Shown here: one piece after another, positions 1 to 36,828 of the stretch | How positions within the stretch are numbered: the stretch's first letter is position 1 | Layout: each line of letters starts with the position of its first letter | Assembly: GCA_002256985.1 (NCBI GenBank) | Contig: NCGO01000005.1 | Coordinates: forward strand, 248,001 to 312,000 | Origin: Novosphingobium sp. 28-62-57 | GTDB lineage: Bacteria; Pseudomonadota; Alphaproteobacteria; Sphingomonadales; Sphingomonadaceae | Direction: 5' to 3' | Length of the DNA stretch: 64,000 nucleotides | Made by a program: the position numbers and the translations under genes | Notes under the pieces: model-generated | The model's input: the letters and a program-made list of their open reading frames with translations, nothing else | Database searches by the model: none | Told to the model about the DNA's origin: nothing

Positions 1-918
1 TTTGGCTGGTACCCGGTGGACCTGTCGGCCAAGCTCGCCGTCGGCGAAGTGCGCCCGCTGCGCTACTTCTCGCAAGACCTTGCCATGTGGCGCGGCGAGG
101 ACGGGCAAGTCCGCATCATCGATGCTTATTGCAAGCACTTGGGCGCACACATGGGCCACGGCGGCAAAGTCCATGGCAACCTGCTCGAATGCCCGTTCCA
201 CGCCTGGCGCTATGATGGCGAAGAAGGCATCGTCAAGGACATCCCCTACTCCAAATCGATCCCCCCGCAGGTCAAGCGCAAGTGCACGCGCACCTGGCAT
301 GTGACCGAGGCGAACCGCTTCATCTGGATCTGGTATCACCCCGAAGACGCCGCTCCGCTGTTCGACGTGGTCCACCTGCCCGAAGCGACTGACCCCGAAT
401 GGACCGATTACGACGTGTTCGAATGGAACGTCTATGGCTCCATCCAGAACATGGCCGAAAACGGCGTGGACGTGGCACACTTCAAATACATCCACGGCAC
501 CGCCAACGTGCCGCTGGGCGAATTGCGCTGGGGCGATTGGGGCCGCGGTGCCACCGTCAAGGCCAAGATGGGCACGCCCTGGGGCGAGGTTGATGGCGAA
601 ATCAGTTACGACACGATGGGCCCGGGCCAAAGCTGGACGCGCTTCACCGGCATTTCCGAAACCCTGCTCGTCGCCTGCATCACGCCAGTCGAGCTTGACC
701 ACGTGCAAGTCCGCTTCTGCTTCACCCAGCCCAAGGCTCAGGCCGAAGGCGAACGCGCTGGCGTCGCCCGTGCGATCATCCGCGATATCTGCAAGCAGTT
801 CGATCAGGACAAGATCATCTGGGATCGCCAGAAGTATCAGCCAAACGCCCTGATCTGCGAAGGCGATGGCCCCATCGCGCAGTTCCGCAAATACTACGCG
901 CGCTATTACGTCGCGTGA
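1..918 (+). CDS. Rieske non-heme iron oxygenase, KshA-like (5' end outside window)
   Basis: Frame 1 is open from the first base (FGWYPVDLSAK...), so the gene begins upstream; the GTG at 16 is internal. It encodes an oxygenase component with a Rieske [2Fe-2S] centre (CKH...GAH, then CPFHAW) and a mononuclear iron site in NGVDVAHFKYIH, which fits the NxxDxxHxxxxH pattern. Small single-component-type Rieske oxygenases of this kind include 3-ketosteroid 9-alpha-hydroxylase KshA, and similar oxygenases act on sterol or bile-acid side chains. No ferredoxin or reductase gene is adjacent. The stop overlaps the following amidase start in a GTGA junction, so the two are probably translated together. 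Substrate is inferred from context only. Confidence 0.88.
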   Translation, partial: FGWYPVDLSAKLAVGEVRPLRYFSQDLAMWRGEDGQVRIIDAYCKHLGAHMGHGGKVHGNLLECPFHAWRYDGEEGIVKDIPYSKSIPPQVKRKCTRTWHVTEANRFIWIWYHPEDAAPLFDVVHLPEATDPEWTDYDVFEWNVYGSIQNMAENGVDVAHFKYIHGTANVPLGELRWGDWGRGATVKAKMGTPWGEVDGEISYDTMGPGQSWTRFTGISETLLVACITPVELDHVQVRFCFTQPKAQAEGERAGVARAIIRDICKQFDQDKIIWDRQKYQPNALICEGDGPIAQFRKYYARYYVA

Positions 919-2423
919 CGAACCCCACCAGAAGAGATGCCCTCGCCGGCGGTATCGCGCTTGTCGCCACCGCCGGCCTGCCGGGAAGCGCACAGGCCAT
1001 GGATAGCGTCCTCGATACCCACGATTGCCTCGGCCTTGCCGATCTGGTGCGCAAGCGCAAAGTCTCGCCCGCCGAACTGCTCGATGCCGCCATTGCGCGC
1101 ACCGAAGCGCTCAACCCGCGCTTCAATTTCATGGCGCAAAAGCACTATGACTATGCGCGCAAAGCCATCGCGGGCGGCCTGCCCAAAGGCCCCTTCACCG
1201 GCGTGCCGTGGCTGCTGAAAGACCTCAACACTTATATCGCGGGCGAAGTGACCGAAAACGGCAGCCGCCTCTACAAAGGCAACCGCGCCACCGTCACCTC
1301 CGAACTCGTCCGCCGGATCGAGGCGGCAGGCTTCGTCGTGTTCGGCAAGACCACCACCCCCGAATTCGGCCTTACCGGCACCACCGAAAGCATCGCCACC
1401 GGCGCCACCCGCAATCCGTGGGACCCGACCCGCGTGGCCGGCGGCTCCTCGGGCGGAGCCGCTGCTGCTGTCGCCGCAGGCGTCATCCCCGCCGCCCACG
1501 CCACCGATGGCGGCGGCTCGATCCGCATTCCGGCCTCTGCCTGCGGGCTGTTCGGCCTCAAACCCTCACGCGGGCGCGTGCCGATGGGGCCGCTCAGGAC
1601 CGAAGGCTGGGGCGGCATGTCGGTCCACCACGCGGTCAGCCGCACCGTGCGCGATTCCGCCGCGATCCTTGATGCCACCTGTGGCACCGAACCCGGCTCC
1701 CGCTATGGCGCACCCACGCCCGAACGCCCGTACTTGCAGGAAGTTGGCCGCGATCCCGGCAAGTTGCGCGTCGCCCTGATGCTCAGCCCCTTCTCCGGCG
1801 CGCCGGTTGATCCAGAAGTCATCGAAGCCACCCGCGCTGCGGCAAAACTGCTCGAAAGCCTCGGCCACCACGTGGAAGAAGCCGCGCCCAGGATCGACAT
1901 GGCCGCCATCGGTGCCAGCAGCTTCGCCCTGATGGCCTCCTCCGTCGCCGCCGACTGCATCGACCGCGCCAAGGCGCTGGGCGTGGAGCTCGGCCCCGAT
2001 GTGGTAGAGCGCACGACGCTGGACTTCATCGCAATGGGCAAAAGCTACACCGCGATGGACTACGCGCGCGGCAACAACGCCTACCAGACCGCTGCCATCA
2101 CCATCTCACAGTTCATGGCTCACTACGATGTGATCCTCTCCCCCACCCTGTCGGCCCCGCCCCTGCCCTTGGGCCGCATCGGATTGGACACGGGCCGCAC
2201 CATGATGGACTGGGGCCGCGAAGTCGGCACCTTCACCGCCTTCTGCGGCATCTACAACGGCACCGGCCAACCCAGCATGTCGCTGCCCTTGAGCATGTCC
2301 AAAGACGGCCTGCCCATCGGCGTGATGGCCACCGGGCGCTACGGCGAGGAAAGCCTGCTGTTCCGCCTGGCAGGCCAGATAGAACGCGCCGCGCCGTGGA
2401 TCGGACGGCGGGCCAAGGTCTAA
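915..2423 (+). CDS. Tat-exported amidase-signature family hydrolase
   Basis: 502-residue amidase with the Ser-cisSer-Lys triad of the amidase signature family: Lys102 in LLKDL, Ser178/179 in GGSSGG and Ser202 in DGGGSIR. The N-terminus (TRRDALAGG, then a hydrophobic stretch ending near SAQA at residue 28) resembles a twin-arginine signal, so the enzyme probably acts in the periplasm. The GTG start overlaps the Rieske stop by 4 bp. Amidase-signature enzymes hydrolyse carboxylic amides; in a steroid-degrading sphingomonad, deconjugation of taurine- or glycine-conjugated bile salts is an attractive but unproven role. Other aryl or acyl amides remain possible. Confidence 0.9.
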
Positions 2424-4189: not shown

Positions 4190-5404
4190 TTAGCTATTAT
4201 TCAAAAACTGTTGTGAAACGTCATCGGCCCCACCCCCAGCAAACCCCAACCCCAACGACCCCATCAGCGCCACAAGCTGCGCCTGCCGCCGCACCCCGGT
4301 CTTGGCGAACACCGCGCGCAGTTGCACTTTGGCCGTGTTATGCGCGATCCCCAATCGCTGCGCGGCTTCCACCAGCGACAGCCCTTCGCCCAGCACCGCT
4401 GCCAATCGCGCTTCGGCCATGGTCAGGCCCAGCAGGTCGCGCAGGGATTGCGGGTCGGTGTGGGCTTCGGGGCCGGGGCGGGCGAGGAACAGGGCCAGCG
4501 CTCCGGCGCCTGCGTGGATCGCGCTCAGTTCAAGCGGGCGAGCGGTGACCACCACGTCGCCCTTGCCCGGCCGCTCCACGCGGAACCGGGTGAGGCCGCC
4601 GCCGGGGGCCAGATCCTTTCCCAGCAGATCGCCCAGCAGCTTCTGATGCGCCGCATCGCTGAAGGCCAGTTCATCGCCGCGCCGTCGCAGCCCTTCGGCC
4701 TCAGCCAACAAAGTTTCGGCCAGCGCATTGCTGCTCACGATCCGGCGGTTGCGGTCGAGCACCACCAGCGCGAGGCCCAGCCCTTGCGCGGTCGCATGGA
4801 ACATGCCGTGTTCGGCGCCTGCAAACTGCAGCTTTTCGAACAGTCCCACCGCGATGCGCAGATGCGGGGCCAGCACTTGCAACCGCGCACGTTCCTCGCG
4901 TGTGAAATCGGGCAGCGAATTGTGGCGGCTCACGCGGAAGCGCGCTTCCCAGCGGCCCTCCGCCGCGCGCACTGCACCGGGCATTCCGGCACCGAAATGC
5001 AGGTCAACGCCCAGCACCTGATCGAACCCGCTTTGCGCCATTGCCTGCCGATATTCGGCAAAGGCGCTGGCGGGCAGCTCGGCCATGAACTCGGCATAAG
5101 ATGTCACTGCGCCATCGGGCAGGCCCTGAAACGGGTCTGCGGCAAACAGCGTTTCGGTATAAGCCGCGTCAAATTCCGGGCTGCTCCCCGGCGTAAGAAA
5201 CGTGGCGGGCTGGCGTTTGCCCGGCGCGGTGATGATCAGCGTGGCGAAGCTTGATTCCATCCACCGCGCCAGCGATTCAAGGAACCTCCGCCACGGCTGA
5301 TCCTCACCCACCCCGGCATAGAGCCGGGCCAGCAGGTCTGAAAAATCAGGATCAATCGCGCCGCCCATGGGTGCAGCATAGGCGGGCGCGACCGGATTGA
5401 CCAA
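4190..5404 (-). CDS. LuxR-type helix-turn-helix transcriptional regulator
   Basis: 404 residues with a C-terminal LuxR HTH (about 335-390: LTMAEARLAAVL...SLVEAAQRLGIAHNTAKVQLRAVFAKTGVRRQAQLV). The N-terminal part of about 320 residues has no signal-receiver aspartate; LALVVLDRNRRIVSSNALAETLL (about 215-240) is PAS-like, so ligand sensing is plausible. The start chosen is TTG, 6 bases after the stop of the LLM oxidoreductase and preceded by GGCGGCGGAA; an ATG at 5368 would shorten it by 12 residues. Same-strand position immediately downstream of the LLM gene suggests cotranscription and control of local catabolic genes. Effector unknown. Confidence 0.85.
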   Translation of the reverse strand: MVNPVAPAYAAPMGGAIDPDFSDLLARLYAGVGEDQPWRRFLESLARWMESSFATLIITAPGKRQPATFLTPGSSPEFDAAYTETLFAADPFQGLPDGAVTSYAEFMAELPASAFAEYRQAMAQSGFDQVLGVDLHFGAGMPGAVRAAEGRWEARFRVSRHNSLPDFTREERARLQVLAPHLRIAVGLFEKLQFAGAEHGMFHATAQGLGLALVVLDRNRRIVSSNALAETLLAEAEGLRRRGDELAFSDAAHQKLLGDLLGKDLAPGGGLTRFRVERPGKGDVVVTARPLELSAIHAGAGALALFLARPGPEAHTDPQSLRDLLGLTMAEARLAAVLGEGLSLVEAAQRLGIAHNTAKVQLRAVFAKTGVRRQAQLVALMGSLGLGFAGGGADDVSQQFLNNS

Positions 5405-5410: not shown

Positions 5411-6580
5411 TTATTCCGCCGCCTCCAATGCCACATCGGCAGCTTCCTGCGCTTCAAGCGCCCGGAAATGCGGGATAACCTTCTCGCCGATGTTGCGGAT
5501 GGTTTCCATGATCACATCGTGCGGAATGCCGCCCATCTGGAAGATGAACAGGATTTCGTCCGCGCCTGCATCCTTCAGCCGGTGAACATAGCGGATGCAA
5601 TCGTCGGGCGTGCCATAGGCATCCTGCGCCACGGTATAGTTCGAAAGATGCTCATCCCCCACCGGGATCGCCTCTTCGGACAAGTAGGCGATGGTCGCCT
5701 CCTTGCCCTGCTCCAGCACCTTGGCGTGATCTTCGGCGGTCAGATTGTCATCCACAGTCGGCTTCGGCCCGCCCTGATACCAATAGGCGATGCTTTCGGC
5801 AAAGAAGCGCTGGCCGCGCAGGCCAATGCGCCGCGCTTCGTCTCGGTCTTCCAGCACGGTTGCGGCGCACAGCGCGGCCAGATGCTCGGTCGGGCGGAAG
5901 CCCACCTGATCCTCGGCCTTGCGCGTGCGGAATGCCTCGCGGTAAATCGCGTTCTTCTTGGCAATCTCGTCCGGCCCGGAAAAGCCCAGCACCAGCGCAC
6001 CGATGCCCCGGCTGCCCGCCGCGATCAGCGTGTTTTCGCGGGTGCAGGCCATGTACATCGGCGGGTGCGGGTCCTGCCACGGCTTGGGGTGGATCGGGCG
6101 TTTGGGGATCTTGATATAGGTGCCGTCATGCTCGATCTCGTCCTGCACCATAATCTTGGGGATCAGGTACATCGATTCATCGATCATCGGCTGCAATTCA
6201 TTGATATCATAGCCGAACGTGCCCGCTTCCTGCTGCGTGCCGCCCTTCCCCACGCCAAAATGCAGGCGACCTTGTGACAGGATATCCAGCGTCGCAATCC
6301 GCTCGGCCACCTTGACGGGATGGTTCATCGCGGGCGGCAGGCAGACCACGCCGTGCCCGATGTGGATGCGGCTGGTCGCCCCGGCGATGAAGGCCAGCAC
6401 CGTTTCGGGCGCAGACATGTGCGCATATTGGCTCAGCGCGGTATGTTCGACGCACCAGATGCAATCGAAGCCCATTTTTTCGGCATACTTGGCCTGCTCA
6501 ACGATCTGCAAAAACACCGCGCGCTCATTTTCGCGGCTGGTATCCACCATTTGCGCTTCGTAAATGATCGAGAATTTCAT
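5411..6580 (-). CDS. LLM class flavin-dependent oxidoreductase (luciferase-like)
   Basis: 389 residues from ATG 6580, preceded by GGAGAG; an upstream in-frame start lacks a ribosome site. The protein shows the bacterial luciferase-like TIM barrel: MKFSIIYEAQ at the first strand, FDCIWCVEHT, the flavin-binding LSQGRLHFGVGKGG and a GTPDDCIRYVHRLKDAGADEILF segment near the end. Such enzymes use reduced FMN for monooxygenation or Baeyer-Villiger-type reactions, or F420 in some lineages. Divergent from the NTF2-fold gene at 6696 across a 115-bp region with a palindrome. Length is typical. Substrate unknown; neighbours suggest a hydrophobic ring compound. Confidence 0.88.
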   Translation of the reverse strand: MKFSIIYEAQMVDTSRENERAVFLQIVEQAKYAEKMGFDCIWCVEHTALSQYAHMSAPETVLAFIAGATSRIHIGHGVVCLPPAMNHPVKVAERIATLDILSQGRLHFGVGKGGTQQEAGTFGYDINELQPMIDESMYLIPKIMVQDEIEHDGTYIKIPKRPIHPKPWQDPHPPMYMACTRENTLIAAGSRGIGALVLGFSGPDEIAKKNAIYREAFRTRKAEDQVGFRPTEHLAALCAATVLEDRDEARRIGLRGQRFFAESIAYWYQGGPKPTVDDNLTAEDHAKVLEQGKEATIAYLSEEAIPVGDEHLSNYTVAQDAYGTPDDCIRYVHRLKDAGADEILFIFQMGGIPHDVIMETIRNIGEKVIPHFRALEAQEAADVALEAAE

Positions 6581-6695: not shown

Positions 6696-7181
6696 ATGCC
6701 GCATGATCTGGAAACGCTGGCCGCACGGCTGCAAGCGCTCGAAGACCGCGAGGCGGTGCGCGAAGTCATCGCCCGCTACGGCCCGCTCGCCGATCGCGGC
6801 GATGCGCAGGCGCTGGCGACGCTGTGGGAGGAGGATGGGACGTACGAAGTCACAGGCTTCGCCACCGCGCGCGGGCGGGCGGAGATCGCCGCGCTGATCG
6901 ACGCGCCCTACCACCGCGAATTGATGGCAGATGGTTGCGCGCATGTGCTTGGTCCCGTCTCCGTCACGGTGGAGGAGGACAGCGCGACCGCTGTTGGACA
7001 TTCGGTGGTGCTGCGCCACCACGAGGGCACGTTCAGCGTGTTTCGCGTGAGTGCGAATTGTTGGACTTTGCGGCGCGATGCGGGTGACGGACAGTGGCGC
7101 GTGCGGCACCGCGCCAATGCGCTGCTTGATGGCGCGGAAGTGGCGCGGGCGCTGCTTTCGGTGCCGGTCAGCGCGGCTTAG
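6696..7181 (+). CDS. SnoaL/NTF2-fold protein
   Basis: 161 residues from ATG 6696 with AGGAG 9 bases upstream. The sequence has the usual NTF2/SnoaL-like plan: an N-terminal helix (LEDREAVREVIARYGPLADRGD), the W-x-x-D-G-TYEV strand after the pocket helix, AHVLGP near residue 90 and a C-terminal sheet ending in WRVRHRANALLDG. Members act as isomerases, dehydratases or small-molecule binders. Divergent from the LLM oxidoreductase. One of four proteins of this fold in the window. Its stop codon TAG lies inside a 10-bp tandem repeat. Reaction not assignable. Confidence 0.78.
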   Translation: MPHDLETLAARLQALEDREAVREVIARYGPLADRGDAQALATLWEEDGTYEVTGFATARGRAEIAALIDAPYHRELMADGCAHVLGPVSVTVEEDSATAVGHSVVLRHHEGTFSVFRVSANCWTLRRDAGDGQWRVRHRANALLDGAEVARALLSVPVSAA

Positions 7182-7222: not shown

Positions 7223-7900
7223 TTATCCGCCCCGCGAGACCGGAATCAGCGCCCCGGAAATCGTTCTGGCAGAGGGACTTGCGAGGAACTGGATGACCTT
7301 GGCGAGCGAGGCTGGCTGCACCCATTGCGAAAAGTCCGCGTCCGGCATGTCGGCGCGGTTCACCGGCGTATCAATGATGCTCGGCAGCACCGCGTTGATC
7401 GTGCAATCGGTACCCACCAGCTCGGCGGCAAGGCTCTCGGTCAGCTTGTGGACCGCCTGCTTCGACGCGGCATAGGCGCCCATCCCCGCGCCTGCATTCA
7501 GCGCGGACCCTGCGCCGATATTGACGATGGCGGCACCCGGCGTTGCGCGCAATGTGGGCAGCGCGGCCTTAGTCATGGTGACGCAAGTGGTTGCATTCAA
7601 GGCAAACATCCGGCCCCAGGTGTCGGGGCCGCCATCATCGAGCGTTTCCCACACGAACCCGCCCGCCACGTTCACCAGCACATCGATGCCGCCCAATTCC
7701 GCCTTCACGCGCGCCACCGCCACTTCGGCCTGCGCTGCATCGGTCAGGTCCACACCGCCCAGATCAAGCCCGCCGGGGTTTTCATCGGGGGCTGATGGGG
7801 CAAAATCGATGCGCGCCACGCGGTCTCCGCTCGTGCGGAACGCTTCGGCCACAGCCCGGCCCAGCACGCCAAATCCACCGGTTACGATTACTGAACGCAT
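7223..7900 (-). CDS. Short-chain dehydrogenase/reductase
   Basis: 225 residues from ATG 7900. The Rossmann start is VTGGFGVLG (a variant of TGxxxGxG), followed by LVNVAGG in place of NNAG, a Ser strand (VNIGAGSAL) and the catalytic YAASK. It is somewhat short but complete for a classical SDR. Last gene of a three-gene set (CMD-like, SDR, SDR), with a 16-bp gap to the upstream SDR. NAD(P)-dependent oxidoreduction of a hydroxyl or keto group is expected; substrate inferred as a catabolic intermediate. Confidence 0.85.
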   Translation of the reverse strand: MRSVIVTGGFGVLGRAVAEAFRTSGDRVARIDFAPSAPDENPGGLDLGGVDLTDAAQAEVAVARVKAELGGIDVLVNVAGGFVWETLDDGGPDTWGRMFALNATTCVTMTKAALPTLRATPGAAIVNIGAGSALNAGAGMGAYAASKQAVHKLTESLAAELVGTDCTINAVLPSIIDTPVNRADMPDADFSQWVQPASLAKVIQFLASPSARTISGALIPVSRGG

Positions 7901-7916: not shown

Positions 7917-8693
7917 TCAGGGCCGCTGCGAATGGCGGATGCCGCCATCGACGACGATCTCGGTACCCGTAACATAGCTGGCTTCGTCCGACAGCAGGAA
8001 GCGGATCACGGTGGCGATTTCTTCTGGGCGGCCAAAGCGGCCGAGGAAGATGCGCGGCCCGTAAAGTTGCTCCATCCCATCGCGCATTTCGCCCAGGATC
8101 GGCGTGTCGATCATGCCGGGGCTGAGCGCGTTGATGCGCACGCCGTGCTGCGCCAGTTCATCGGCCATCGAGCGCACGAGCGAGATCACCGCACCCTTGG
8201 CGGCGGTGTAAATCGGGATCATGCCATTGCCAAACCACGCATTTATCGATGCAATGCCGACGATGGCGCTGCCCGGATTGGCCTTCAGGTCCTCCATGAA
8301 GGCCTGCGTCAATTCGATCAGCGCGCGCACGTGCAGCGCCATTCCAGCATCGAAGTTTTCAGGCGTTACCCCGCCGATCCCAGTCTGCACCGCCGTGCCC
8401 GCGCCGTGGACGATTCCGCCGACAGAGCCCAGCGCCGCGCGGGTCTGCACCGCCGCCGGAGCCACGCCCTGCGGATTGCGCAAGTCCACCGCAAGGCCCA
8501 CGGCGCTGACGCCATAAGTGGCTGAAATATCGGCAGCTGCAGCCATTGCGCCCTCAGCGTTGATATCCCACAGCGCCACCGGGCGGCCCACCGCTGCCAG
8601 CGCATGGGCGGCGGCCAGGCCGATGCCCGATGCGCCGCCAGTGATGACCACGCCGGTGTTCGGCGCGCCCAGCATTGCAGCGTCAGCTGTCAC
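7917..8693 (-). CDS. Short-chain dehydrogenase/reductase
   Basis: 258-residue classical SDR with TGGASGIG near residue 18, VHGAG in the NNAG position, a Ser-containing IASINAW strand and the YTAAK catalytic pair, ending in the usual TGTEIVVDGG tail. The GTG start overlaps the stop of the upstream carboxymuconolactone decarboxylase-like gene in a GTGA junction, so translation is probably coupled. Role: oxidation or reduction of an alcohol or ketone in the local pathway. Confidence 0.88.
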   Translation of the reverse strand: MTADAAMLGAPNTGVVITGGASGIGLAAAHALAAVGRPVALWDINAEGAMAAAADISATYGVSAVGLAVDLRNPQGVAPAAVQTRAALGSVGGIVHGAGTAVQTGIGGVTPENFDAGMALHVRALIELTQAFMEDLKANPGSAIVGIASINAWFGNGMIPIYTAAKGAVISLVRSMADELAQHGVRINALSPGMIDTPILGEMRDGMEQLYGPRIFLGRFGRPEEIATVIRFLLSDEASYVTGTEIVVDGGIRHSQRP

Positions 8694-9268
8694 GCAGCGG
8701 CTTTCTGCGGATCATTCCCGGCAAGGCCTGCAAGGCACACCGTATCAAAGCCCAGCACATGCGCCACGCGGCCAAGGCCGACCCATGCGGCGGTGCAGTG
8801 CGCCAGATCGACGATCTCGGCATCGGTGAAAGCGGCGTTCATCCGCGCCCAGAAGTCTTCGTCAACTGCCAGAGCTTGCGGCTCTGTGCCGAAGCGTTCG
8901 GCAAATTCGATGGCGAGGCGTTCGCGGTCTGTGAACAGCGTGGCGGTGCGCCAGTTTTCAATTGCCGCGTAATAGGCTTCATCGGGCGCGGGGCCGTTGG
9001 TGGTGACGAGGTTCTGGTTGGGATCGCCGGCCACGCTGTAGAGCACCGGCGCATCGCGTTCGGCGCGGAAATCCTTGCACACCATGCAGCCGTTGATCTG
9101 CGCGGTGCGCATCCGCGCGCCTTCGAATTCGCGCAAGGACAGCGCGCTCTCGCGATAGACGGCGGCGGCAAAGGCCGCGCTGGCCGAGACTATCGGCACC
9201 GCATAGTTTCTGGCGGCAAAGCCGAACGGATTGCCCTGCTGGTCTTCAGGAATGGTAATGCGCGCCAT
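8690..9268 (-). CDS. Carboxymuconolactone decarboxylase/AhpD-like protein
   Basis: 192 residues from ATG 9268 with a GAGGAG ribosome site. The CMD/AhpD signature is visible around MRTAQINGCMVCKDFRAE: Cys61 and Cys64 form the CxxC pair, but the His that follows in AhpD is replaced. A second helical half (FTDAEIVDLAHCTAAWVGLGRVAHVLGF) completes the all-alpha fold. AhpD relatives have peroxidase or disulfide reductase activity, while CMD relatives decarboxylate lactones; the CxxC favours the redox type. Cotranscribed with two downstream SDRs. Confidence 0.82.
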   Translation of the reverse strand: MARITIPEDQQGNPFGFAARNYAVPIVSASAAFAAAVYRESALSLREFEGARMRTAQINGCMVCKDFRAERDAPVLYSVAGDPNQNLVTTNGPAPDEAYYAAIENWRTATLFTDRERLAIEFAERFGTEPQALAVDEDFWARMNAAFTDAEIVDLAHCTAAWVGLGRVAHVLGFDTVCLAGLAGNDPQKAAA

Positions 9269-9442: not shown

Positions 9443-10222
9443 TTACATACCCGGCGATCCGGGGAAACCCATGTAGTATGTGCCCACGGTCATCCCGCCA
9501 TCGACGACGATTTCGGTGCCGTGGCAATAGGATGATTCATCACTGGCGAGGAAGGCCGAGGCCGCGGCGACCTCTTCCGGGCCACCAATGCGCTGCATCG
9601 GCACGTTGCTGTATTGCTTGTCGATTTCGGCGCGGGGTGCACCCGTGTGGTTGGACATCACGGTATCGACGCCGCCGGGGTGGACCGAATTGACGCGGAT
9701 GCCCTTGTGGCCCAGCTCCATCGCGGCGACTTTCGTCAAGCCGCGCACGCCCCATTTGGACGAGGCATAAGCGACAAGGCTGTTGGCGCCCTTCATGCCA
9801 TCGACCGAGGAAATGTTGACGATGGAGCCTTTGCCCCGCGCGATCATTCCCGGCGCAACGGCCTTGATGCCGAGAAATTCGCCGACAAGATTGACGCCCA
9901 GCACGCGCTCGTAATCGGCCTTGGTGGTTTCAAGGATCGACTTGAACATCAGGATACCGGCATTGTTGACCAGTGCATCGACAGGGCCAAGGTCAGCTTC
10001 GGCAGCGGCGACAACGCGTGCCCAATCGTCCTCGTTCGTGACGTCGAGCTTGTAGAAGCGCGCGGCATCGCCGAGTTCTGCGGCGAGCGCCGCGCCGTCT
10101 TCTTCAAGCACATCGGCGATGGCGACCTTTGCGCCCTCGGCCACGAACAGGCGCGATGTGGCCGCGCCCATGCCGCGCGCGCCGCCGGTGATGATGGCGA
10201 CTTTGCCAGTCAGCTTGCCCAT
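9443..10222 (-). CDS. SDR resembling 3-alpha(20-beta)-hydroxysteroid dehydrogenase
   Basis: 259 residues from ATG 10222 with GGAGAG upstream. It has TGGARGMG, LDVTNEDDWARVV, NNAG, VNISS and YASSKWGVRGLTK, then VNSVHPGG. As far as I recall, the ARFYKLDVT...WARVV and SSKWGVRGL...AMELG..GIRVNSVHPG blocks closely match 3-alpha(20-beta)-hydroxysteroid dehydrogenase of Streptomyces and its FabG3-like relatives. Reversible oxidation of a steroid hydroxyl is therefore a reasonable inference. It is isolated from its neighbours by family D and family B repeats. Confidence 0.88.
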   Translation of the reverse strand: MGKLTGKVAIITGGARGMGAATSRLFVAEGAKVAIADVLEEDGAALAAELGDAARFYKLDVTNEDDWARVVAAAEADLGPVDALVNNAGILMFKSILETTKADYERVLGVNLVGEFLGIKAVAPGMIARGKGSIVNISSVDGMKGANSLVAYASSKWGVRGLTKVAAMELGHKGIRVNSVHPGGVDTVMSNHTGAPRAEIDKQYSNVPMQRIGGPEEVAAASAFLASDESSYCHGTEIVVDGGMTVGTYYMGFPGSPGM

Positions 10223-12044: not shown

Positions 12045-12155
12045 CTGCATCACTCCTGTAGACTTCGCCGTTATGAATCGGTGTCACGGCGCATTTATGG
12101 GTTGTTTATCCGAAAAATACGCGATTTGCGAATTTTTTATCACACTGCCCGCTAT

Positions 12156-24994: not shown

Positions 24995-25004
24995 GGATAC
25001 CTCA

Positions 25005-25940: not shown

Positions 25941-25956
25941 TCCAAGCACCCCCTTC

Positions 25957-26025: not shown

Positions 26026-26034
26026 AGATTTGAC

Positions 26035-27081
26035 ATGACCTCCAACTCCACCTTCAACGTCGAAGCCGGCGACAAGCTCTATATCCAGGACGTCACCCTG
26101 CGCGATGGCATGCATGCCATTCGCCACATGTACGGCATCGATCAGGTCAAGGCGATTGCCTCGGCCATCGACAAGGCCGGTGTTGATGCCATCGAAGTGG
26201 CCCACGGCGATGGCCTGTCGGGTGCGAGCTTCAACTACGGCTTTGGCGCGCATACCGATTGGGAATGGCTCGAAGCCGTGGCCGAAGTGCTGACCACGTG
26301 CGTGCTGACCACGCTGATCCTGCCCGGCGTAGGCACGGTGGAAGAACTCAAGCGCGCCTATGACATCGGCGTACGCTCGGTCCGCGTGGCCACGCATTGC
26401 ACCGAGGCGGACGTTTCCAAGCAGCACATCGGCATCGCGCGCGATCTGGGCATGGACGTGTCCGGCTTCCTGATGATGAGCCACATGATCGAGCCGGAGC
26501 TGCTGGCCAAACAGGCGCTGCTGATGGAAAGCTATGGCGCGCAGTGCATCTATGTCACCGACAGCGGCGGCGCGCTCGACATGGATGGCGTGCGCGCGCG
26601 GTTCGAAGCCTATGACCGCGTGCTGAAGCCCGAAACGCAGCGCGGGATGCATGCGCATCACAACCTGTCGCTGGGCGTGGCCAACTCCATAGTCGCGGCA
26701 CAGTGCGGCGCGGTGCGGATCGACGCCAGCCTTACCGGCATGGGCGCAGGCGCGGGCAATGCGCCGCTCGAAGTGTTCATCGCCGCCGCAGACCGCAAAG
26801 GCTGGAACCACGGCTGCGATGTGATGATGCTGATGGACGCTGCCGAAGACATCGTGCGCCCGATGCAGGACCGCCCGGTCCGCGTGGACCGCGAAACGCT
26901 CGCATTGGGCTATGCCGGGGTCTATTCCAGCTTCCTGCGCCATGCCGAAAAGGCATCGGAAACTTATGGCATCGACACGCGCGAGATCCTTGTCGAACTT
27001 GGCCGCCGCAAGATGGTGGGCGGGCAGGAAGACATGATCGTGGACGTCGCGCTCGACATTATCAAGCAACGCGAGGGCTGA
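26035..27081 (+). CDS. dmpG: 4-hydroxy-2-oxovalerate/oxohexanoate aldolase (HsaF/TesG, DmpG family)
   Basis: 348 residues from ATG 26035. DmpG-family aldolase: [15 protein letters not shown] with the metal-binding Asp, [31 protein letters not shown] and the metal ligands in [15 protein letters not shown], with a C-terminal dehydrogenase-communicating domain ([23 protein letters not shown]). It cleaves 4-hydroxy-2-oxoacids to pyruvate and an aldehyde, which passes to the acylating dehydrogenase. The ribosome site lies at the edge of a repeat. Confidence 0.93.
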
Positions 27082-27141: not shown

Positions 27142-27912
27142 ATGATCCTGAAAGACAAAGTCGTCATCATCACCGGTGCAGGCCCCGGCATGGGGCAGGC
27201 CGCCTGCCGCGGTGCGGCGCGTGAAGGCGCAAAGGTCGTCGTCACCGCCCGGTCGAAGCAGGCTATTGAGGACGTGGCGCACGAGATCGTGGCCGCAGGC
27301 GGCGAAGCGATTGCCGTGCCGCTGGATGTGACCGACATGGACCAGTGCAAGGCTGCCGCACAAGCCGCCGTGGACAAATGGGGCCGGATCGATGGGCTGG
27401 TCAACTCGGCCTATTATCACCCCGATTGGGGTCCGTTGATCGAACATGACATGGAACAAGTGCTGCAGGCGTTCAACGTTGGCGCGGCAGGGGCCTTGCG
27501 CATGGCGATGGCGGTCTATCCCACGATGAAGGCGCAAGGCGCAGGCTCCATCGTCAACATCTCCACGCTCTGCACGCGCAAGCCGATGCCCGGTGAAGGC
27601 GGCTATGGCATGGCCAAGGGTGCACTCAATCACATGACCCGCCACCTTGCCGTGGAATTTGGCGGCAGCGGCATCCGCGTCAACACCGCGCTGATGGGCT
27701 GGATGATGGGCGCACCTTTGGAAGGCTTCATCAAGGGCTTGGGCGATGGCGCTGATGCTTTCCGCACGCAGCGCGCCAGCGAAATCCCGGTCGGCCACAT
27801 TCCGCCCGACGCAGATTGTGCGAAGGCCGTCTATTTCCTGCTGTCGGACTATGCCTCGGAGATCACCGGCGCGATGCTCGACGTCAACGGCGGCGATTGG
27901 GTCGCGGCATAA
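27142..27912 (+). CDS. Short-chain dehydrogenase/reductase with NSAY motif
   Basis: 256 residues from ATG 27142 (GGAGAG upstream). Cofactor motif TGAGPGMG, LDVTD, catalytic YGMAK, a Ser/Thr strand VNISTLCT and C-terminal TGAMLDVNGG. The usual NNAG is replaced by NSAY (VNSAYYHPDWGPL), a departure near the active site. It follows the aldolase by 60 bases and is followed by SRPBCC- and BaiE-like genes, so it probably works on the steroid nucleus; hydroxysteroid oxidation is a reasonable inference. Confidence 0.86.
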   Translation: MILKDKVVIITGAGPGMGQAACRGAAREGAKVVVTARSKQAIEDVAHEIVAAGGEAIAVPLDVTDMDQCKAAAQAAVDKWGRIDGLVNSAYYHPDWGPLIEHDMEQVLQAFNVGAAGALRMAMAVYPTMKAQGAGSIVNISTLCTRKPMPGEGGYGMAKGALNHMTRHLAVEFGGSGIRVNTALMGWMMGAPLEGFIKGLGDGADAFRTQRASEIPVGHIPPDADCAKAVYFLLSDYASEITGAMLDVNGGDWVAA

Positions 27913-27923: not shown

Positions 27924-28454
27924 ATGCTGCTCGACTGGATGAAAACGCACCCGTCGCTCGCCGAAGATCCGGTATCGGGGCTTGACCCCGATGCCATCAC
28001 CGTCAGCGATACGGTCGAAATCGCCGCCCCCGCCCGCGTGGTGTGGCAAGTTCTGACCGACATGCCGCGCTACAACGAATGGAACCCGTTTTGCGTAAAG
28101 GCGGAGTCCACGCTCGAAATGGGCGCGGCGGTCAACATGAAGCTGATGAACTATGCGGTGCCGGGCAGCATCGTGCCCAATTGCGAATACATCTGCGCCA
28201 ATGATCCCGAACGCCTGCTGTCATGGGAAATGGTCCACAGCGACTTCTGGCCCTACCCCGCCCGGCGCGATCAGGTGATCGAGCCGACGGGGCCGGAATC
28301 GTGCCGCTATTTCAGCACCGATGCCTTTCTGGGCGCAAACGGCATCCACGTGTTCCGCTTTGCCGGTCCCTGGGTAAAGCGCGCGTTCGATGATTCCGCC
28401 CGCGCGCTAAAGCTGCGCGCCGAAGAGCTTTACGCCCAAGAGAAGAAAGCCTGA
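27924..28454 (+). CDS. SRPBCC (polyketide cyclase/dehydrase-like) protein
   Basis: 176 residues from ATG 27924 with GGGAG upstream, 11 bases after the SDR stop. The SRPBCC start DTVEIAAPARVVWQVLTDMPRYNEWNPFC and the C-terminal long helix (WVKRAFDDSARALKLRAEELYAQ) are clear. The fold binds hydrophobic ligands such as sterols, polyketides or ring intermediates; catalysis is not assured. Six bases separate it from the BaiE-like gene, suggesting shared function. Confidence 0.85.
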   Translation: MLLDWMKTHPSLAEDPVSGLDPDAITVSDTVEIAAPARVVWQVLTDMPRYNEWNPFCVKAESTLEMGAAVNMKLMNYAVPGSIVPNCEYICANDPERLLSWEMVHSDFWPYPARRDQVIEPTGPESCRYFSTDAFLGANGIHVFRFAGPWVKRAFDDSARALKLRAEELYAQEKKA

Positions 28455-28460: not shown

Positions 28461-28994
28461 ATGCCGCTTACCCTGCAACAGCTGTCCGACATCGAGGAAA
28501 TCAAGGTGCTCAAGCACCGCTATTTCCGGGGCATCGATACCGGCGATCAGGCGCTGCTGGCCGATATCTTCGTCGAGAACGTCTCGTGCGTCTATAACGG
28601 CGGGACCTACAAGGTCTCGCTCAAAGGGCGCGCGCCGATGCTCGAATTCCTCGCCAATTCGTTCCATTCGGGCGCGGCGGCGATGCATATCGGGATCATG
28701 CCCGAAGTGCATATCACCGGCGACAATACGGCCCGCGGAATCTGGTATTTGCAGGACGTATTCATCGATCTGGAAAAGGACGATCACACCTTTGGCACCG
28801 CGATCTATACCGATACCTATCGCCGCGAAGGCGGGGTGTGGAAGATCGAGAGCACCTATTATGACCGCGTGATCGAGGTGCTGACCAAGTTCAGCCAGAT
28901 GGGCGGGCGGCTATCGGTCCAGCGCCTTGCCACCACCGGCCGAAAGCCCGAAGAACGCACCGATATCAGCCATCTGATCCACTGGGACGAATAG
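28461..28994 (+). CDS. BaiE-like bile acid 7-alpha-dehydratase homologue (NTF2 fold)
   Basis: 177 residues from ATG 28461. Compared with Clostridium BaiE as I remember it, three pocket residues align: Tyr21 in LKHRYFRGID (BaiE KGKYFRCLD, Tyr30), His76 in MHIGIMPEVHI (BaiE MHMGHTPEI, His83) and Asp99 in ARGIWYLQD (BaiE TGRWYLED, Asp106). The later AIYTDTYRREGGVWKIESTYYDRVIEV also matches. BaiE removes the 7-alpha-hydroxyl of 3-oxo-delta-4 bile acids; Sphingobium has an aerobic counterpart that yields delta-4,6 steroids. Context with SDR, SRPBCC, KstD- and OYE-type genes supports the same reaction here. The C-terminal 25 residues are extra. Confidence 0.82.
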   Translation: MPLTLQQLSDIEEIKVLKHRYFRGIDTGDQALLADIFVENVSCVYNGGTYKVSLKGRAPMLEFLANSFHSGAAAMHIGIMPEVHITGDNTARGIWYLQDVFIDLEKDDHTFGTAIYTDTYRREGGVWKIESTYYDRVIEVLTKFSQMGGRLSVQRLATTGRKPEERTDISHLIHWDE

Positions 28995-30865: not shown

Positions 30866-30918
30866 ATTTAGAATTTAATTGGCCGAACTGGATGATTCCT
30901 CCGTCAACTCAAGTCGGA

Positions 30919-33441
30919 TCAGGGACCGCGGAACTTCACGCCCACTTCTGCGCCGAAGTAGCGCGGCGCACCGAAGTTCGAGTTGAGCCACAGGCCCGCC
31001 ACGTTCTGCGATGCAATCCGGTAACGCTCGTCGGTCAGGTTGCGGCCCATCACGCGGACGTAGTACTTGTTGTCCACTTGCGAGAGCGTCAGCGAAGCAT
31101 TGACCAGCGTGCGTGCGTTCAGGAACGTGTTGCCCAGCGGATCGTCAATCGCCTGCGTGTTCAGGTTGCGGCTGGTATAGGCCGCCGAGGCATTGGCCAC
31201 GAACTTGAACTCACTGCTCACCGGCACTTCATAAGTGCCGTCCACCGTCCACTGCCACTTGGGCGCGCGGTCCAGCGGTGCGGTGGCAAGGTCATAGCCT
31301 GCACCCGGTGCGGTATAGCTGTCGTAGGCCGCGTCCTGATAACCCAGCACGCCGCGCAGCGTGAAGCCTTCGAACAGGCGGGCGGTTGCTTCGGCTTCCA
31401 GACCCTTCACCGTGGCGCTGGCCGCGTTGACGAAGATCGTCACCTGGTTCGACTGCCCGTTAACCGTGATCGGCACGTTGAGCTGCTTTTGCAGATCCTT
31501 GTACTTCACATAGAAGCCGGTGAGGTTGAAGCGCAGGCGGCGGTCAAACAGCTCGGTCTTGATGCCCGCTTCATAGCTGTCAGCCGTTTCCGGGTTCGTG
31601 GCCCGGGCGGCGGTGCGGAACGCATTCACGTCTGCACCAAAGGCGGCAAAGCCACCGATCTGGTCGTTAAAGCCGCCGCTCTTGAACCCGCGCGAGTACG
31701 TTGCGTAGGCAAAGATATCAGGCGTGGCCTGCCAGCCAAGGCTGGCGCGCCAGGTCGCGCGACGGGCACTGTTATCCACGCGGATCACACCTGCCGGGAA
31801 CTTGAATACGCTCGCATCCAGCGCTTCATCGATCTGGATCGAAGGATCGAAACCGCCGTTCAGCGCAGGGATGAACACCTGCTGGCGGCCATACCATTCC
31901 TTGTCTTCCCAGGTATAGCGGGCACCGGCTGTAAAGGTGATCTCGGGCGTGATCTTGTAAGTGCCTTCGGCAAACGCCGCCTTCGAACGCGATTTCTGTG
32001 CGTTGCATAGGATATAGGGCGTGTCGTTCCAGTTGCCGAACGGCAGCGGGCCGGATGTCAGGTCAAGGAAGCCGAGCAGCTGCGCCACGCAGAAATCGAT
32101 GGTTTCGCGCTGGTAGAACCCGCCCAGCACCATATCGAAATTACCGCCGAAATCGGTGGCAAAGCGCAGTTCCTGCTGGAAGGTCTTGCGGTTGTCATCG
32201 CGCGTTGCGTCAAAGATCGACAGCGGCTGACCGTCTGCCGCAATCGGCACGGCGCCGGCATAAGAGTTCGGAATGCGCGATTCCTGTTTGCGCCATCCGG
32301 TGACCGACGTCAGCGTGCCGAAATCGAAATCGATGTCGCCGTTCAGATAGATGCCGTCCACCGAAATGCGCTGCCCATCGCGCATCTTGATCAGCCCGTC
32401 CTGACGATAGCTGACCGCGGCATTATCAAGCGGATCGTTGCTGTTGGGATTGGGGCGCACAGCATTCAGCACATCGGTCAGGAACGCCGTATTGCCGGTG
32501 TAAAGGCCGTTTTCATTGACCGAAGGCACGGTTTCCGACCGGTCACGCAGCCATTCGTATTGCGCCAGCAGGCGGATGCGGTCAGTCGGCTCCCACAGCA
32601 GCTTGGCGCGCAGATTGACCACGTCCTTGCCGCCAGCCGATTCCCCGTCAAGGCAGCCAGTCCGGCCATTAAACTTGTTCGGCACAAATCCGGTCACCGG
32701 ACCATAGCAGGCCCCGTTCTTGTAAAAGCCATCGGTCTTTTCCGCGCCGCCGACCAAGCGCAGCGCCAGATTCTCACCAATCGGCACATTCAGTGCGGTC
32801 TGGAACCGCTTGGTGCCAAAGCTGCCCAGTTCGGCCCGCGCATCCACGCCCACCGCGCCCAGCTCAGGGCGCTTGGTGCGCACGGTAACCGCGCCGCCAG
32901 TGGTGTTCTTGCCGAACAGCGTGCCCTGCGGACCGCGCAGCACTTCGACCTGCTGCACATCGAACACGTCAAGCAGCTGGGTCTGGACCGAGGACACGAC
33001 GAAATCGTCCACGAGCACGGCCACCGGCGGCTCGAAGTAGACGATGATCGACGTCTGGCCCACGCCGCGCATCGCAAACGATGCGGCGTTGAAGTTTGTG
33101 ATGGTGTTGGCCGAGAAGTTCGGCACGAAAGCGGCCAGATCGCCCAAATCGCGCGGGCTGGCCTGCTGGATCAGGTTGGCGTCAACCGCAGAAACCGCCA
33201 CCGGCGTTGATTGCAGGTTCGAATCGCGACGCAGCGCGGTCACCACGATTTCGTTCAGCTGGCCGGCATTGCTGGTGCTGGTGGTCGTGGCATCCGTTGA
33301 TGAATCCTGGGGCGCAGCCTGGGCCTCATCCGCTGCAACAGCGGCATTCGCCATGGCCGGGGCCGACAGGATCGTTGGTGCAAGGGCTGCTGCTACAAGG
33401 GCGCAAGCGGCAGTCGACCGCCGCAGAGTACTGCTCAACAT
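30919..33441 (-). CDS. TonB-dependent outer-membrane receptor
   Basis: 840 residues from ATG 33441 with GAGGAG 7 bases upstream. A signal peptide (STLRRSTAACALVAAALAPTILSAPAMA) is followed by a TonB-box-like segment (NEIVVTALRRDSNLQSTPVAVSAV), plug (LGDLAAFVPNFSANT, VEVLRGPQGTLFGKNTTGGAVTVRTKRP) and a beta-barrel ending in an aromatic residue region (FGAEVGVKFRGP). Receptors of this class in sphingomonads often import hydrophobic or bulky substrates. Position beside steroid-type genes suggests uptake of the pathway substrate. Confidence 0.92.
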   Translation of the reverse strand: MLSSTLRRSTAACALVAAALAPTILSAPAMANAAVAADEAQAAPQDSSTDATTTSTSNAGQLNEIVVTALRRDSNLQSTPVAVSAVDANLIQQASPRDLGDLAAFVPNFSANTITNFNAASFAMRGVGQTSIIVYFEPPVAVLVDDFVVSSVQTQLLDVFDVQQVEVLRGPQGTLFGKNTTGGAVTVRTKRPELGAVGVDARAELGSFGTKRFQTALNVPIGENLALRLVGGAEKTDGFYKNGACYGPVTGFVPNKFNGRTGCLDGESAGGKDVVNLRAKLLWEPTDRIRLLAQYEWLRDRSETVPSVNENGLYTGNTAFLTDVLNAVRPNPNSNDPLDNAAVSYRQDGLIKMRDGQRISVDGIYLNGDIDFDFGTLTSVTGWRKQESRIPNSYAGAVPIAADGQPLSIFDATRDDNRKTFQQELRFATDFGGNFDMVLGGFYQRETIDFCVAQLLGFLDLTSGPLPFGNWNDTPYILCNAQKSRSKAAFAEGTYKITPEITFTAGARYTWEDKEWYGRQQVFIPALNGGFDPSIQIDEALDASVFKFPAGVIRVDNSARRATWRASLGWQATPDIFAYATYSRGFKSGGFNDQIGGFAAFGADVNAFRTAARATNPETADSYEAGIKTELFDRRLRFNLTGFYVKYKDLQKQLNVPITVNGQSNQVTIFVNAASATVKGLEAEATARLFEGFTLRGVLGYQDAAYDSYTAPGAGYDLATAPLDRAPKWQWTVDGTYEVPVSSEFKFVANASAAYTSRNLNTQAIDDPLGNTFLNARTLVNASLTLSQVDNKYYVRVMGRNLTDERYRIASQNVAGLWLNSNFGAPRYFGAEVGVKFRGP

Positions 33442-34271: not shown

Positions 34272-34300
34272 CCCCGCCTTATCCATCAGGAGCGCCATCG

Positions 34301-34615: not shown

Positions 34616-34619
34616 CCCC

Positions 34620-34916: not shown

Positions 34917-34932
34917 AGAGAGAGCACGTCCG

Positions 34933-36828
34933 ATGACGCTTTCATTTCGCCGCATCGCCGCCCTGTGCCTGCCCGTGCTGGCAGCCGGGGCTATTGGCTC
35001 CTCGCTGCTCAACGCCGCACCACCGCAGCGCATCAAATCGCACGAGGACCTGCAGGTCTATGATACCCCGCGCATTGACCCTGCCACTGCACCGGGCCGC
35101 CCCCTGTTCGAACAGCACTGCGCGATGTGCCACATGGGTGGCGTGCCCAAAGCGCCAAGCCCCGCGTTCCTCGCCATGGTCGCGCCTGATTCCATCGTGC
35201 AATCGCTGACCGATGGCATCATGCGCACCCAAGGCGCGATGTTGACCGCGCAGCAGAAGATCGAGGTCGCCGAATACCTGACCCGCACCCCCTTCGCCTC
35301 GTATCAGCGCCCCGCCCCGCCGAAGCAGTGCACCGGCGATGCCGCACAGATGGACATGGCCGATGTGCCAGCCCCCATCGGCTGGGGCCACGACAACCGC
35401 CGCTTCGTGCCTGCCGCCGTGGCGCAGCTGCCCGCAGCTGATGTGCCCAAGCTGAAGCTGAAGTGGTCGTTCGCCTATCCCGCCTCAAACCGCGCACGCT
35501 CGCAGCCCACGCTGGCATGGGGCACGCTGTTTGTCGGTAGCCAGGACGGCACCGTCTACGCCTTTGATCCCGATACCGGCTGCACCCGCTGGACCAACCG
35601 GCTCAGCGCCGAAGTGCGCACCGCCATTGTCGCCGATGCCGAAAACAAGCGGCTCTATTTCGGCGATCTGCTGGGCAAGGTCCACGCGCTCGATGCCATG
35701 ACCGGCAAGGAACTGTGGGCGGGGCGGATGAGCGATCATGCCGATTCCACCATCACCGGCACGCCCACGCTGGGCGGCGGGCTGCTCTATGTGCCCGTCT
35801 CCTCGCTCGAAGTGGTGCAGGCCGGCGATCCCGCTTATGCCTGCTGCACCTTCCGCGGCTCGGTCGTCGCGCTAGACCCTGCCACGGGCCGCGAAGTGTG
35901 GCGCGCGTGGACAGCGGGGGAACCCAAACCGTTTGGCAAGACCGCATCGGGCACGCAGATCCTCGGCCCCTCCGGCTCGCCGGTGTGGAACAGTCCGACT
36001 TATGATCCCGCCGCAGGCCGCGTCTATTTCGGCTCGGGCGAGAACTATTCCTCGCCTGCCGATCTCAGCTCCGATGCCATTTTCGCAGTCGATGCGCGCA
36101 ACGGCAAGGAGCTGTGGCGCAGGCAGTTGACGCCCAAGGACGCGTGGAACGTGGGCTGCATGGTCGGCAACGATTCCTGCCCGGTTGAAAACGGGCCGGA
36201 CTATGATTTTGCCGCATCGGTGCTGGTCATGCCCACGCCATCGGGTGGCAAGATGATCGTGGCGGGGCAAAAGTCCGGGCAGGTCACCGGGATTGATCCT
36301 GAAACGGGCAAGGTCGCATGGCAAACCCGCGTCGGCCATGGCGGCACGCAGGGCGGCGTCCACTTTGGCATGGCGGCAGAAGGCAGCACGGTGTTCGTGC
36401 CGGTCAACGACATGGCCGAAACCTATGACGCGCGCGTTTATGACGCCAAGATCCGGGGTGCCGGTATCCACGCGCTTGATGCTGCCACCGGCAAAGTCCA
36501 GTGGTTCACCCGCGCGCCGGACAAGTGCAAGGGCGCCAAGTTCTGCGATCCAGGCATCTCGGCTGCTGCCACCGCCATCCCCGGCGCGGTCTTTGCAGGG
36601 CACCTTGATGGCATGTTCCGCGCCTATGACAGCAAGACCGGCCGCGTGATCTGGCAGTTTGATACCACGCAGCCCATGACCACGATTGACGGCAAGACCA
36701 CCAAGGGCGGCAGCATGAGCGGCCCCGGCGCTGCCGTGTGGAAAGGCAAGGTCTTCGTCAATTCGGGCTACGGCATGTACAGCCACATGGCCGGAAACGC
36801 GCTGATGGTGTTCGAAGCCGCGAAGTAA
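34933..36828 (+). CDS. Periplasmic PQQ-dependent dehydrogenase with N-terminal cytochrome c domain
   Basis: 631 residues from ATG 34933. A signal peptide (about 1-28) precedes a cytochrome c domain with CAMCH (Cys63, Cys66, His67), followed by an eight-bladed PQQ propeller (repeats such as VGSQDGTVYAFDPDTGCTRW, GKVHALDAMTGKELWAG, GSVVALDPATGREVW, AGQKSGQVTGIDPETGKVAWQ). Heme-first order and size resemble polyvinyl-alcohol dehydrogenase of sphingomonads rather than methanol dehydrogenase, whose heme is separate or C-terminal. It would oxidise a secondary or bulky alcohol in the periplasm and pass electrons to the chain. Substrate unknown. Confidence 0.88.
   Translation: MTLSFRRIAALCLPVLAAGAIGSSLLNAAPPQRIKSHEDLQVYDTPRIDPATAPGRPLFEQHCAMCHMGGVPKAPSPAFLAMVAPDSIVQSLTDGIMRTQGAMLTAQQKIEVAEYLTRTPFASYQRPAPPKQCTGDAAQMDMADVPAPIGWGHDNRRFVPAAVAQLPAADVPKLKLKWSFAYPASNRARSQPTLAWGTLFVGSQDGTVYAFDPDTGCTRWTNRLSAEVRTAIVADAENKRLYFGDLLGKVHALDAMTGKELWAGRMSDHADSTITGTPTLGGGLLYVPVSSLEVVQAGDPAYACCTFRGSVVALDPATGREVWRAWTAGEPKPFGKTASGTQILGPSGSPVWNSPTYDPAAGRVYFGSGENYSSPADLSSDAIFAVDARNGKELWRRQLTPKDAWNVGCMVGNDSCPVENGPDYDFAASVLVMPTPSGGKMIVAGQKSGQVTGIDPETGKVAWQTRVGHGGTQGGVHFGMAAEGSTVFVPVNDMAETYDARVYDAKIRGAGIHALDAATGKVQWFTRAPDKCKGAKFCDPGISAAATAIPGAVFAGHLDGMFRAYDSKTGRVIWQFDTTQPMTTIDGKTTKGGSMSGPGAAVWKGKVFVNSGYGMYSHMAGNALMVFEAAK

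Follow-up and report, generated by a model that had tools for sequence, protein, structure and literature searches.

The question that this locus of Novosphingobium sp. 28-62-57 raises is what relatives of the anaerobic bai dehydroxylation genes are doing next to genes for the aerobic 9,10-seco degradation of steroids, families that an earlier note on this DNA took to be used separately in established pathways. The window, by which we mean the whole stretch of 64,000 nucleotides that was analysed (G000:C21:248001-312000), lies on the 339-kb contig C21 of a genome of 4.10 Mb (39 contigs). From sequence relationships, its positions 1 to 28,994, with 25 genes, very probably belong to an island for the catabolism of bile salts (steroids) in a Novosphingobium-like sphingomonad, which would degrade them by the delta-4,6 variant of the aerobic 9,10-seco pathway, as in Sphingobium sp. 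Chol11. The premise of separate use was wrong, because Hsh2 (BaiE-like), 5-beta-delta-4-KSTD1, KshA and HsaA have been described jointly in Chol11 (Table 1 of the review PMC8399759; PMC8044976), and we therefore dropped the idea that bai and seco genes are combined here in a new aerobic way. The delta-4,6 route is very likely the one used by this region, and it has already been described in related bacteria.

In the window, 51 genes (g1 to g51) were called with a codon model that had been trained on its own sequence, and the starts of g2 and g18 were later revised to 915 and 22157; a tRNA search of the window found none. Pfam, NCBIfam and PDB sequence searches of the window proteins recovered every enzyme family named in the earlier note. 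Gene content, gene order, the reciprocal relation to Chol11 and conservation were all observed directly. For the second and third of these, the Chol11 pieces C6, C9 and L080 were compared with our contig C21 and 40 kb of contig C19, with genes called on the Chol11 contigs and on our own contig. Reciprocal best matches were found for 22 of the first 25 genes (48-92% identity, coverage at least 90%) and, at 45% identity or more, for 3 of the 26 genes g26 to g51 (g42, g43 and g47); the Fisher test gives p = 3e-8, a value biased because the Chol11 contigs had been selected for carrying steroid genes. Whole-genome searches of Chol11 and of our own genome placed the best matches of g25, g11, g14 and g16 in agreement with the contig comparison, and in tblastn searches of g16, g14, g18 and g11 against plasmids, those of Novosphingobium and Sphingobium ranked first. 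Across 199 genomes of the family, all 15 with a relative of g25 (at E 1e-30) also carry an HsaA relative of at least 60%.

The Nov2c tags of Chol11 genes, which are listed by these numbers in Table 1 of PMC8399759, are our own assignment from gene order and published identities, with good agreement. Counting from hsh2 (index 31 on C9), the KshA genes (indices 38, 60 and 70) lie 7, 29 and 39 steps away, where 7, 30 and 40 were expected; KSTD1 is 46.3 and 63.8% identical to its two homologues, against published values of 46 and 62% (PMC8044976); and Hsh3 shares 62% with its F199 homologue, the same as published (PMC12175502).

The set ends on the right near 28,994. In Novosphingobium sp. 17-62-19 (L031, 95% in g18), which is the closest among the named relatives, the order of g14 to g26 is kept and then diverges, and g26 to g32 have no match of at least 45% on the fetched Chol11 contigs or on ten fetched plasmid stretches. 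The steroid region that the earlier note had drawn from 1 to 36,828 is real but narrower. The island as a whole is spread over contig C21, which outside the window codes for relatives of IpdA (56%), IpdB (55%), Hsh1 (90%), Sor1 (78%), SteB (72%), Hsh3 (61%), Scd4A (82%), Scd4B (66%), SclA (65%) and the TonB receptor Nov2c232 (66%), and for a FadD3 relative (C21:123657-125201, 87% to FadD3 of plasmid pNL2).

Every reaction of the pathway is predicted from the relation to Chol11 enzymes, of which not all have been assayed. The first steps would be served by two genes at the left edge of the window:

1..918, + strand: g1, Rieske oxygenase (PF19298/PF00355), relative of Nov2c228, a presumed side-chain hydroxylase; its 5' end lies beyond the window
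915..2423, + strand: g2, bile-salt amidase, Bsa-like, with a twin-arginine-like leader (Amidase, E 4e-87; 71% to Chol11 C6_217)

The exported amidase would release bile salts from their glycine or taurine conjugates, and SclA, Scd4AB and the Rieske protein g1 may then begin the loss of the side chain. Read from GTG 915, g2 carries the leader RRDALAGG (judged by eye), and leaders of this kind are also present on its relatives in Chol11, pNL2 and ES2-1, so the description of this amidase as exported stands; a start at ATG 999, which lacks the leader, was dropped. The reciprocal best match of g1 is Chol11 C6_218, with 84.5% over the part in the window and 82.6% at full length. Of the two KshA-like Rieske proteins in the earlier note, g1 and g11, both do contain the KshA_C domain; g1, however, pairs with Nov2c228 and not with the 9-alpha-hydroxylases (about 29% identity to the two Chol11 KshA proteins in its match list), so it was rejected as a second KshA. 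SclA and an amidohydrolase lie directly upstream of g1, just left of the window (C21:245045-247585), and the order SclA, amidohydrolase, Rieske, amidase is common to our contig, Chol11, ES2-1 and pNL2, with one additional short-chain dehydrogenase/reductase (SDR) inserted in pNL2. With Scd4A and Scd4B on the same contig, relatives of the whole side-chain set (Bsa, SclA, Scd4AB and Nov2c228) are present.

The steroid nucleus would be modified by five proteins:

9443..10222, - strand: g9, 3-alpha-hydroxysteroid dehydrogenase candidate (Nov2c6; 2hsd, E 9e-71; Chol11 C6_5, 76%)
10965..12050, - strand: g11, KshA, oxygenase of 3-ketosteroid 9-alpha-hydroxylase (KshA_C; KshA 4qdc, E 4e-51; 70.5% to Nov2c440, 70.2% to Nov2c407)
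15156..16841, - strand: g14, delta-1-3-ketosteroid-dehydrogenase-like flavoprotein (7p18, E 6e-140; 75.5% to Chol11 C9_295, 48.5% to Nov2c82)
18192..20318, + strand: g16, 5-beta-delta-4-KSTD family, BaiCD/FadH-like (64.4% to Nov2c314, 63.5% to Nov2c19)
28461..28994, + strand: g25, predicted 7-alpha-hydroxysteroid dehydratase Hsh2, BaiE-like (BaiE 4l8p, E 1e-17, distant; 61% to Chol11 C9_31, which is Nov2c400 by gene order)

We propose that g9 oxidises the 3-alpha-hydroxyl, that g16 introduces the delta-4 double bond into the 5-beta-3-ketone, and that g25 eliminates the 7-alpha-hydroxyl as water to give the delta-4,6-3-ketone; g14 would then introduce delta-1 and KshA (g11) hydroxylate C9, leading to the opening of ring B. 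These proteins are the SDR close to 3-alpha,20-beta-hydroxysteroid dehydrogenase (g9), the KstD-like (g14) and BaiCD/FadH-like (g16) flavoproteins and the BaiE-like dehydratase (g25) that the earlier note had recognised. In its own genome g16 is the sole full-length match of its kind, and it belongs to the family in which KSTD1 of Chol11 introduces the delta-4 bond; the 5-beta-delta-4-KSTD1 itself is an old yellow enzyme with 28% identity to BaiCD (PMC8399759, PMC8044976). Five residues of the BaiE active site are kept in g25 (Y21, D26, H76, D99 and R136). Three other proteins were rejected as the BaiE-like gene: g10, the one of the three that was compared with the PDB, lacks a BaiE match by sequence, g5 pairs reciprocally with C9_1 and not with Hsh2, and g29 has no reciprocal match in Chol11.

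The genes for the later steps form a compact group:

20645..21757, - strand: g17, second HsaA-like monooxygenase (NCBIfam HsaA, 274 bits, cut-off 450; 42% to Nov2c349)
22157..23368, + strand: g18, HsaA, 9,10-seco-steroid monooxygenase (Nov2c349; NCBIfam HsaA, 373 bits, cut-off 450; Chol11 71%, reciprocal)
23383..24213, + strand: g19, HsaD, meta-cleavage hydrolase (Nov2c348; NCBIfam HsaD, 143 bits, cut-off 400; Chol11 67%)
24200..24994, + strand: g20, HsaE hydratase (TIGR03220, 357 bits, cut-off 409; Chol11 75%)
25005..25940, + strand: g21, HsaG acylating aldehyde dehydrogenase (TIGR03215, 452 bits, cut-off 282; Chol11 84%)
26035..27081, + strand: g22, HsaF 4-hydroxy-2-oxoacid aldolase (TIGR03217, 572 bits, cut-off 286; Chol11 92%)

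HsaA (g18) with a reductase, HsaC from elsewhere on the contig and HsaD (g19) would open and cleave ring A, HsaE, HsaF and HsaG (g20 to g22) would break down the C6 piece, and the HIP genes elsewhere on the contig would complete the degradation of rings C and D. Both HsaA-like monooxygenases and the HsaD/E/G/F-like enzymes (23383-27081, + strand) had been named before and were confirmed here. A scan of genome contigs with an HsaA alignment gave 163 relatives, of which the best 80, Chol11 included, were kept; in these loci, some of them truncated by contig ends, g18 to g22 are collinear in 57 of 80 and g18 and g19 adjacent in 72 of 80, and a second HsaA-like gene lies beside the g18 relative in 5. 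This second gene, g17, is divergent from g18 and lacks a counterpart of its own on the Chol11 contigs that were fetched, the best match of Nov2c349 itself being g18. The genes called in the window include neither HsaC nor, without a search dedicated to it, HsaB. The best HsaC match of the genome is also on C21, at a distance of 139 kb from the left edge of the window and of 161 kb from g18, and is accompanied by IpdAB and further HIP genes (C21:108300-117165). A candidate of the HsaB/KshB type is the flavin reductase encoded at C21:131190-131717. Thus KshA, HsaA, HsaC, HsaD, HsaEFG and HIP genes are all present, in the window as g11 and g18 to g22 and otherwise on contig C21.

The set further contains a regulator and nine other genes:

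4190..5368, - strand: g3, helix-turn-helix regulator (77-80% to pNL2 and ES2-1 regulators so annotated; no Pfam match)
5411..6580, - strand: g4, flavin oxidoreductase of the luciferase-like monooxygenase class (Bac_luciferase, E 5e-47; Chol11 C9_34, 75%, three genes from Hsh2)
6696..7181, + strand: g5, SnoaL-like protein (SnoaL_4; Chol11 C9_1, 49%)
7223..7867, - strand: g6, SDR (adh_short; Chol11 C9_296, 53%, beside the g14 relative C9_295)
7917..8675, - strand: g7, SDR (adh_short; Chol11 C9_326, 72%)
8690..9268, - strand: g8, carboxymuconolactone-decarboxylase-like (weak CMD match below the Pfam cut-off; Chol11 C6_6, 63%, adjoining Nov2c6)
10337..10801, - strand: g10, SnoaL-like protein (Chol11 C9_288, 78%)
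17187..18041, - strand: g15, SDR (adh_short; Chol11 C9_29, 58%, two genes from Hsh2)
27142..27912, + strand: g23, SDR (Chol11 C6_8, 48%)
27924..28454, + strand: g24, SRPBCC protein (Polyketide_cyc2; Chol11 C9_25, 67%)

Several observations weigh against assigning this set to the Chol11 type of pathway. Reciprocity was assessed between the fetched contigs and not between whole genomes, and g3 (33%), g12 (50%, non-reciprocal) and g17 fall short of the reciprocal criterion of 45%. The matches to HsaA, HsaD, HsaE, BaiCD (g16, 421 bits, cut-off 825), KstD and HsaC are all below the curated NCBIfam cut-offs; HsaC, with 47%, shows a lower identity than most of the genes around it, and SteA is not among the reciprocal matches on the fetched contigs. 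Regarding single enzymes, g14 is nearer to an unnamed Chol11 paralogue (C9_295) than to Nov2c82, and g16 is equally close to Nov2c314 and Nov2c19, of which the former was inactive and the latter active in published assays (PMC8044976). The deletion of the g18 relative in Chol11 left growth on cholate unchanged, with accumulation of DHSATD (PMC8540908), and the homologues of Hsh2 and 5-beta-delta-4-KSTD in C. tardaugens were not induced by cholate relative to testosterone (PMC12882949).

The alternative that survives best, which we nevertheless consider rather unlikely, is that other steroids (androgens, oestrogens or plant sapogenins) are the main substrates of the cluster, the bile-salt genes being minor or a relict. 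Ring-degradation genes are common to many steroid substrates, and close relatives are found on plasmids of Sphingobium strains named Tom..., a tomato origin being suggested by the names only; tomatine is broken down by the tomato-root strain Sphingobium sp. RC1, in which orthologues of steroid enzymes act on the sapogenin (PMC10653915). A cytochrome P450 gene (C21:95104-96522) two genes from the Hsh3 relative points the same way. Against this, relatives of Bsa, SclA, Scd4AB, Hsh2, Hsh3, Hsh1 and Sor1 are all on the contig, which fits conjugated bile salts with a C5 side chain and hydroxyls at position 7 or 12.

Far less probable is a delta-1,4 route of the kind found in Pseudomonas Chol1 or Comamonas, in which g25 would act at a later stage or somewhere else. 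It would accommodate the delta-1-KstD-like g14. The position of attack also does not follow from a BaiE-like fold alone, since SteC of C. testosteroni, which is BaiE-like, takes off the hydroxyl at position 12 (PMC13101464); the partner of g25, however, is Hsh2 and not Hsh1, for which the contig codes for a separate relative of 90% identity (OWN21_115). Finally, it is hardly credible that the genes serve a pathway for polycyclic or aromatic compounds other than steroids: the HsaE/F/G, SDR, Rieske and SnoaL families are widespread and several NCBIfam steroid models score below cut-off, but the nearest characterised relatives of g2, g9, g11, g16, g18, g19 and g25, which the earlier note had asked to be compared with Bai, Hsa/Tes and Sphingobium bile-salt enzymes, are steroid enzymes, and the gene order is shared with the Chol11 steroid clusters. 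A bile-salt pathway of the delta-4,6 type remains our preferred reading, and the aerobic route through such intermediates proposed in the earlier note agrees with these relatives, as a route already known.

Two genes within the set offer a lead on the side chain, the removal of which is described in PMC8399759 and PMC12175502 as largely unknown in sphingomonads:

12274..13092, - strand: g12, Coq4-like protein (PF05019, E 4e-7; no reciprocal best match in Chol11)
13352..15163, - strand: g13, AtuA-family protein (PF07287, E 1e-135; PF23544; Chol11 C6_277, 54%)

We know of no role of an AtuA-family or Coq4-like gene in steroid degradation, and neither name was mentioned among the matches listed from the steroid-degradation literature. 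The two genes (12274-15163) are adjacent here, on pNL2 and on ES2-1 p1, always after a KstD-like gene. In F199, SARO_RS19010 corresponds to g13 and SARO_RS19015 to g12, and SARO_RS19600 to g25. Taking the best match per genome in the 199 family genomes, with cut-offs set after viewing the tables and genomes that are related and not independent, HsaA relatives of at least 60% occur in 21 (lowest 67%). Within these 21 fall all of the 15 Hsh2 genomes, the 18 with a g1 relative of at least 55% (lowest 58%) and the 16 with an AtuA relative of g13 of at least 51%, the last also all within the 18. As a control, the flanking gene g43 was found in 30 of the 199 genomes, 2 of them among the 21. Within the 21, the Fisher test gives p = 0.008 for AtuA with g1 and p = 0.011 for AtuA with Hsh2, which co-occur in 14 of 16 genomes, almost as closely as AtuA and g1; the pattern therefore does not single out the side-chain step. 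When every AtuA match to E 1e-50 is counted, 29 genomes are found, and since 12 of them are without HsaA at 60%, the family as such is not steroid-specific. Because of the post hoc cut-offs, the kinship of the genomes, the tracking of Hsh2 and these distant AtuA genes, we regard the pattern as a lead and not a result; that g13, perhaps with its neighbour g12, is a missing part of bile-salt side-chain degradation in sphingomonads is a tentative and on the whole doubtful suggestion. Neither of the two genomes of the same genus among the 199 (G107 and G164) showed a match to g18, g1 or g25 within the limits applied; the distribution of the island is therefore patchy inside the genus as well.

To the right of the set, positions 29316-36828 hold a separate group of genes for a ring-hydroxylating Rieske oxygenase, a TonB receptor, a SnoaL protein, a cytochrome-pyrroloquinoline quinone protein and two small ABM-like proteins, one recognised by Pfam and one by eye, without Chol11 counterparts at 45%. 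The receptor is as follows:

30919..33354, - strand: g28, TonB receptor

A TonB receptor is thus present as the earlier note had said, but without a Chol11 match of at least 45% it is not part of the steroid set, and g28 was rejected as the bile-salt receptor, as the reciprocal match of Nov2c232 is a different one (C21:136655-139225). Elsewhere on the contig, the P450 gene mentioned above (region C21:95104-98487 with the Hsh3 relative) is 88% identical to SARO_RS19170 of pNL2.

The region is one more well-conserved example of the delta-4,6 bile-salt pathway and shows that pathway modules can take different arrangements, with g13, g12 and g17 as candidates regarding side-chain removal and the growth of Chol11 despite the loss of its sole recognised seco-steroid monooxygenase gene. 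Outside Chol11, S. herbicidovorans MH, C. tardaugens and N. aromaticivorans F199 are reported as strains with a confirmed delta-4,6 pathway, and the last of them grows on ursodeoxycholate with transient delta-4,6 intermediates (PMC12175502). Relatives of many window genes are found on pNL2, ES2-1 p1, pMSHV and pP6W1 (annotated stretches) and on PP1Y Mpl (unannotated). With Chol11 the window shares, beyond the 22 reciprocal pairs, the side-chain module and the HsaA-D-E-G-F order, but here genes of three Chol11 contigs are gathered within 29 kb, Hsh2 comes after the HsaF operon, g17 is present, HsaC is split off, and no flavin reductase stands between HsaD and HsaE, because g19 and g20 overlap. 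Our genome codes for one KshA-like protein of at least 47% identity to g11, namely g11 itself, and Chol11 for four.

On pNL2 of N. aromaticivorans DSM 12444 (= F199) there are relatives of g1 to g4, g9, g11 to g16, g18 and g23 to g25 at 69-94%, including the hsh2-SRPBCC-SDR-HsaA block; the genes, however, are dispersed across some 190 kb (217-406 kb), HsaA adjoins HsaC and IpdAB, and the 147 of 487 kb examined contained no hsaD, E, G or F. The operon g18 to g22 is collinear in S. herbicidovorans MH, P6W (pP6W1) and PP1Y (plasmid Mpl), PP1Y also having g23 to g25 behind it. On pMSHV of MH, HsaC stands next to an HsaA-D-E-G-F operon with 68-91% identity to g18 to g22; unlike in the window, a flavin reductase lies inside the operon, as also in P6W between HsaD and HsaE, and the operon is in two copies. 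About 10.5 kb of pMSHV with HsaC, IpdAB and HsaA-D-B-E-G-F occurs twice (L027 288-10771 and L007 8449-18932) with identical protein accessions. In P6W (L029 17821-25315) and MH (L007 12205-18932), HsaC is divergent from the HsaA-D-flavin reductase-E-G-F operon, which is perhaps the older order from which the window departs.

The bai operon of Clostridium scindens has in common with the window the families of the BaiE-like dehydratase and the BaiCD-like flavoenzyme; in that organism, reduction of the delta-4,6 intermediate yields secondary bile acids and leaves the nucleus intact (PMC10382948), whereas in the window oxygenase and meta-cleavage genes follow. In the delta-1,4 variant of P. stutzeri Chol1 and C. 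testosteroni, Hsh2 is listed as absent in Table 1 of PMC8399759, in contrast to the Hsh2-type g25 found here. The region is a further instance of a known bile-salt system, and its differences are rearrangements of that system.

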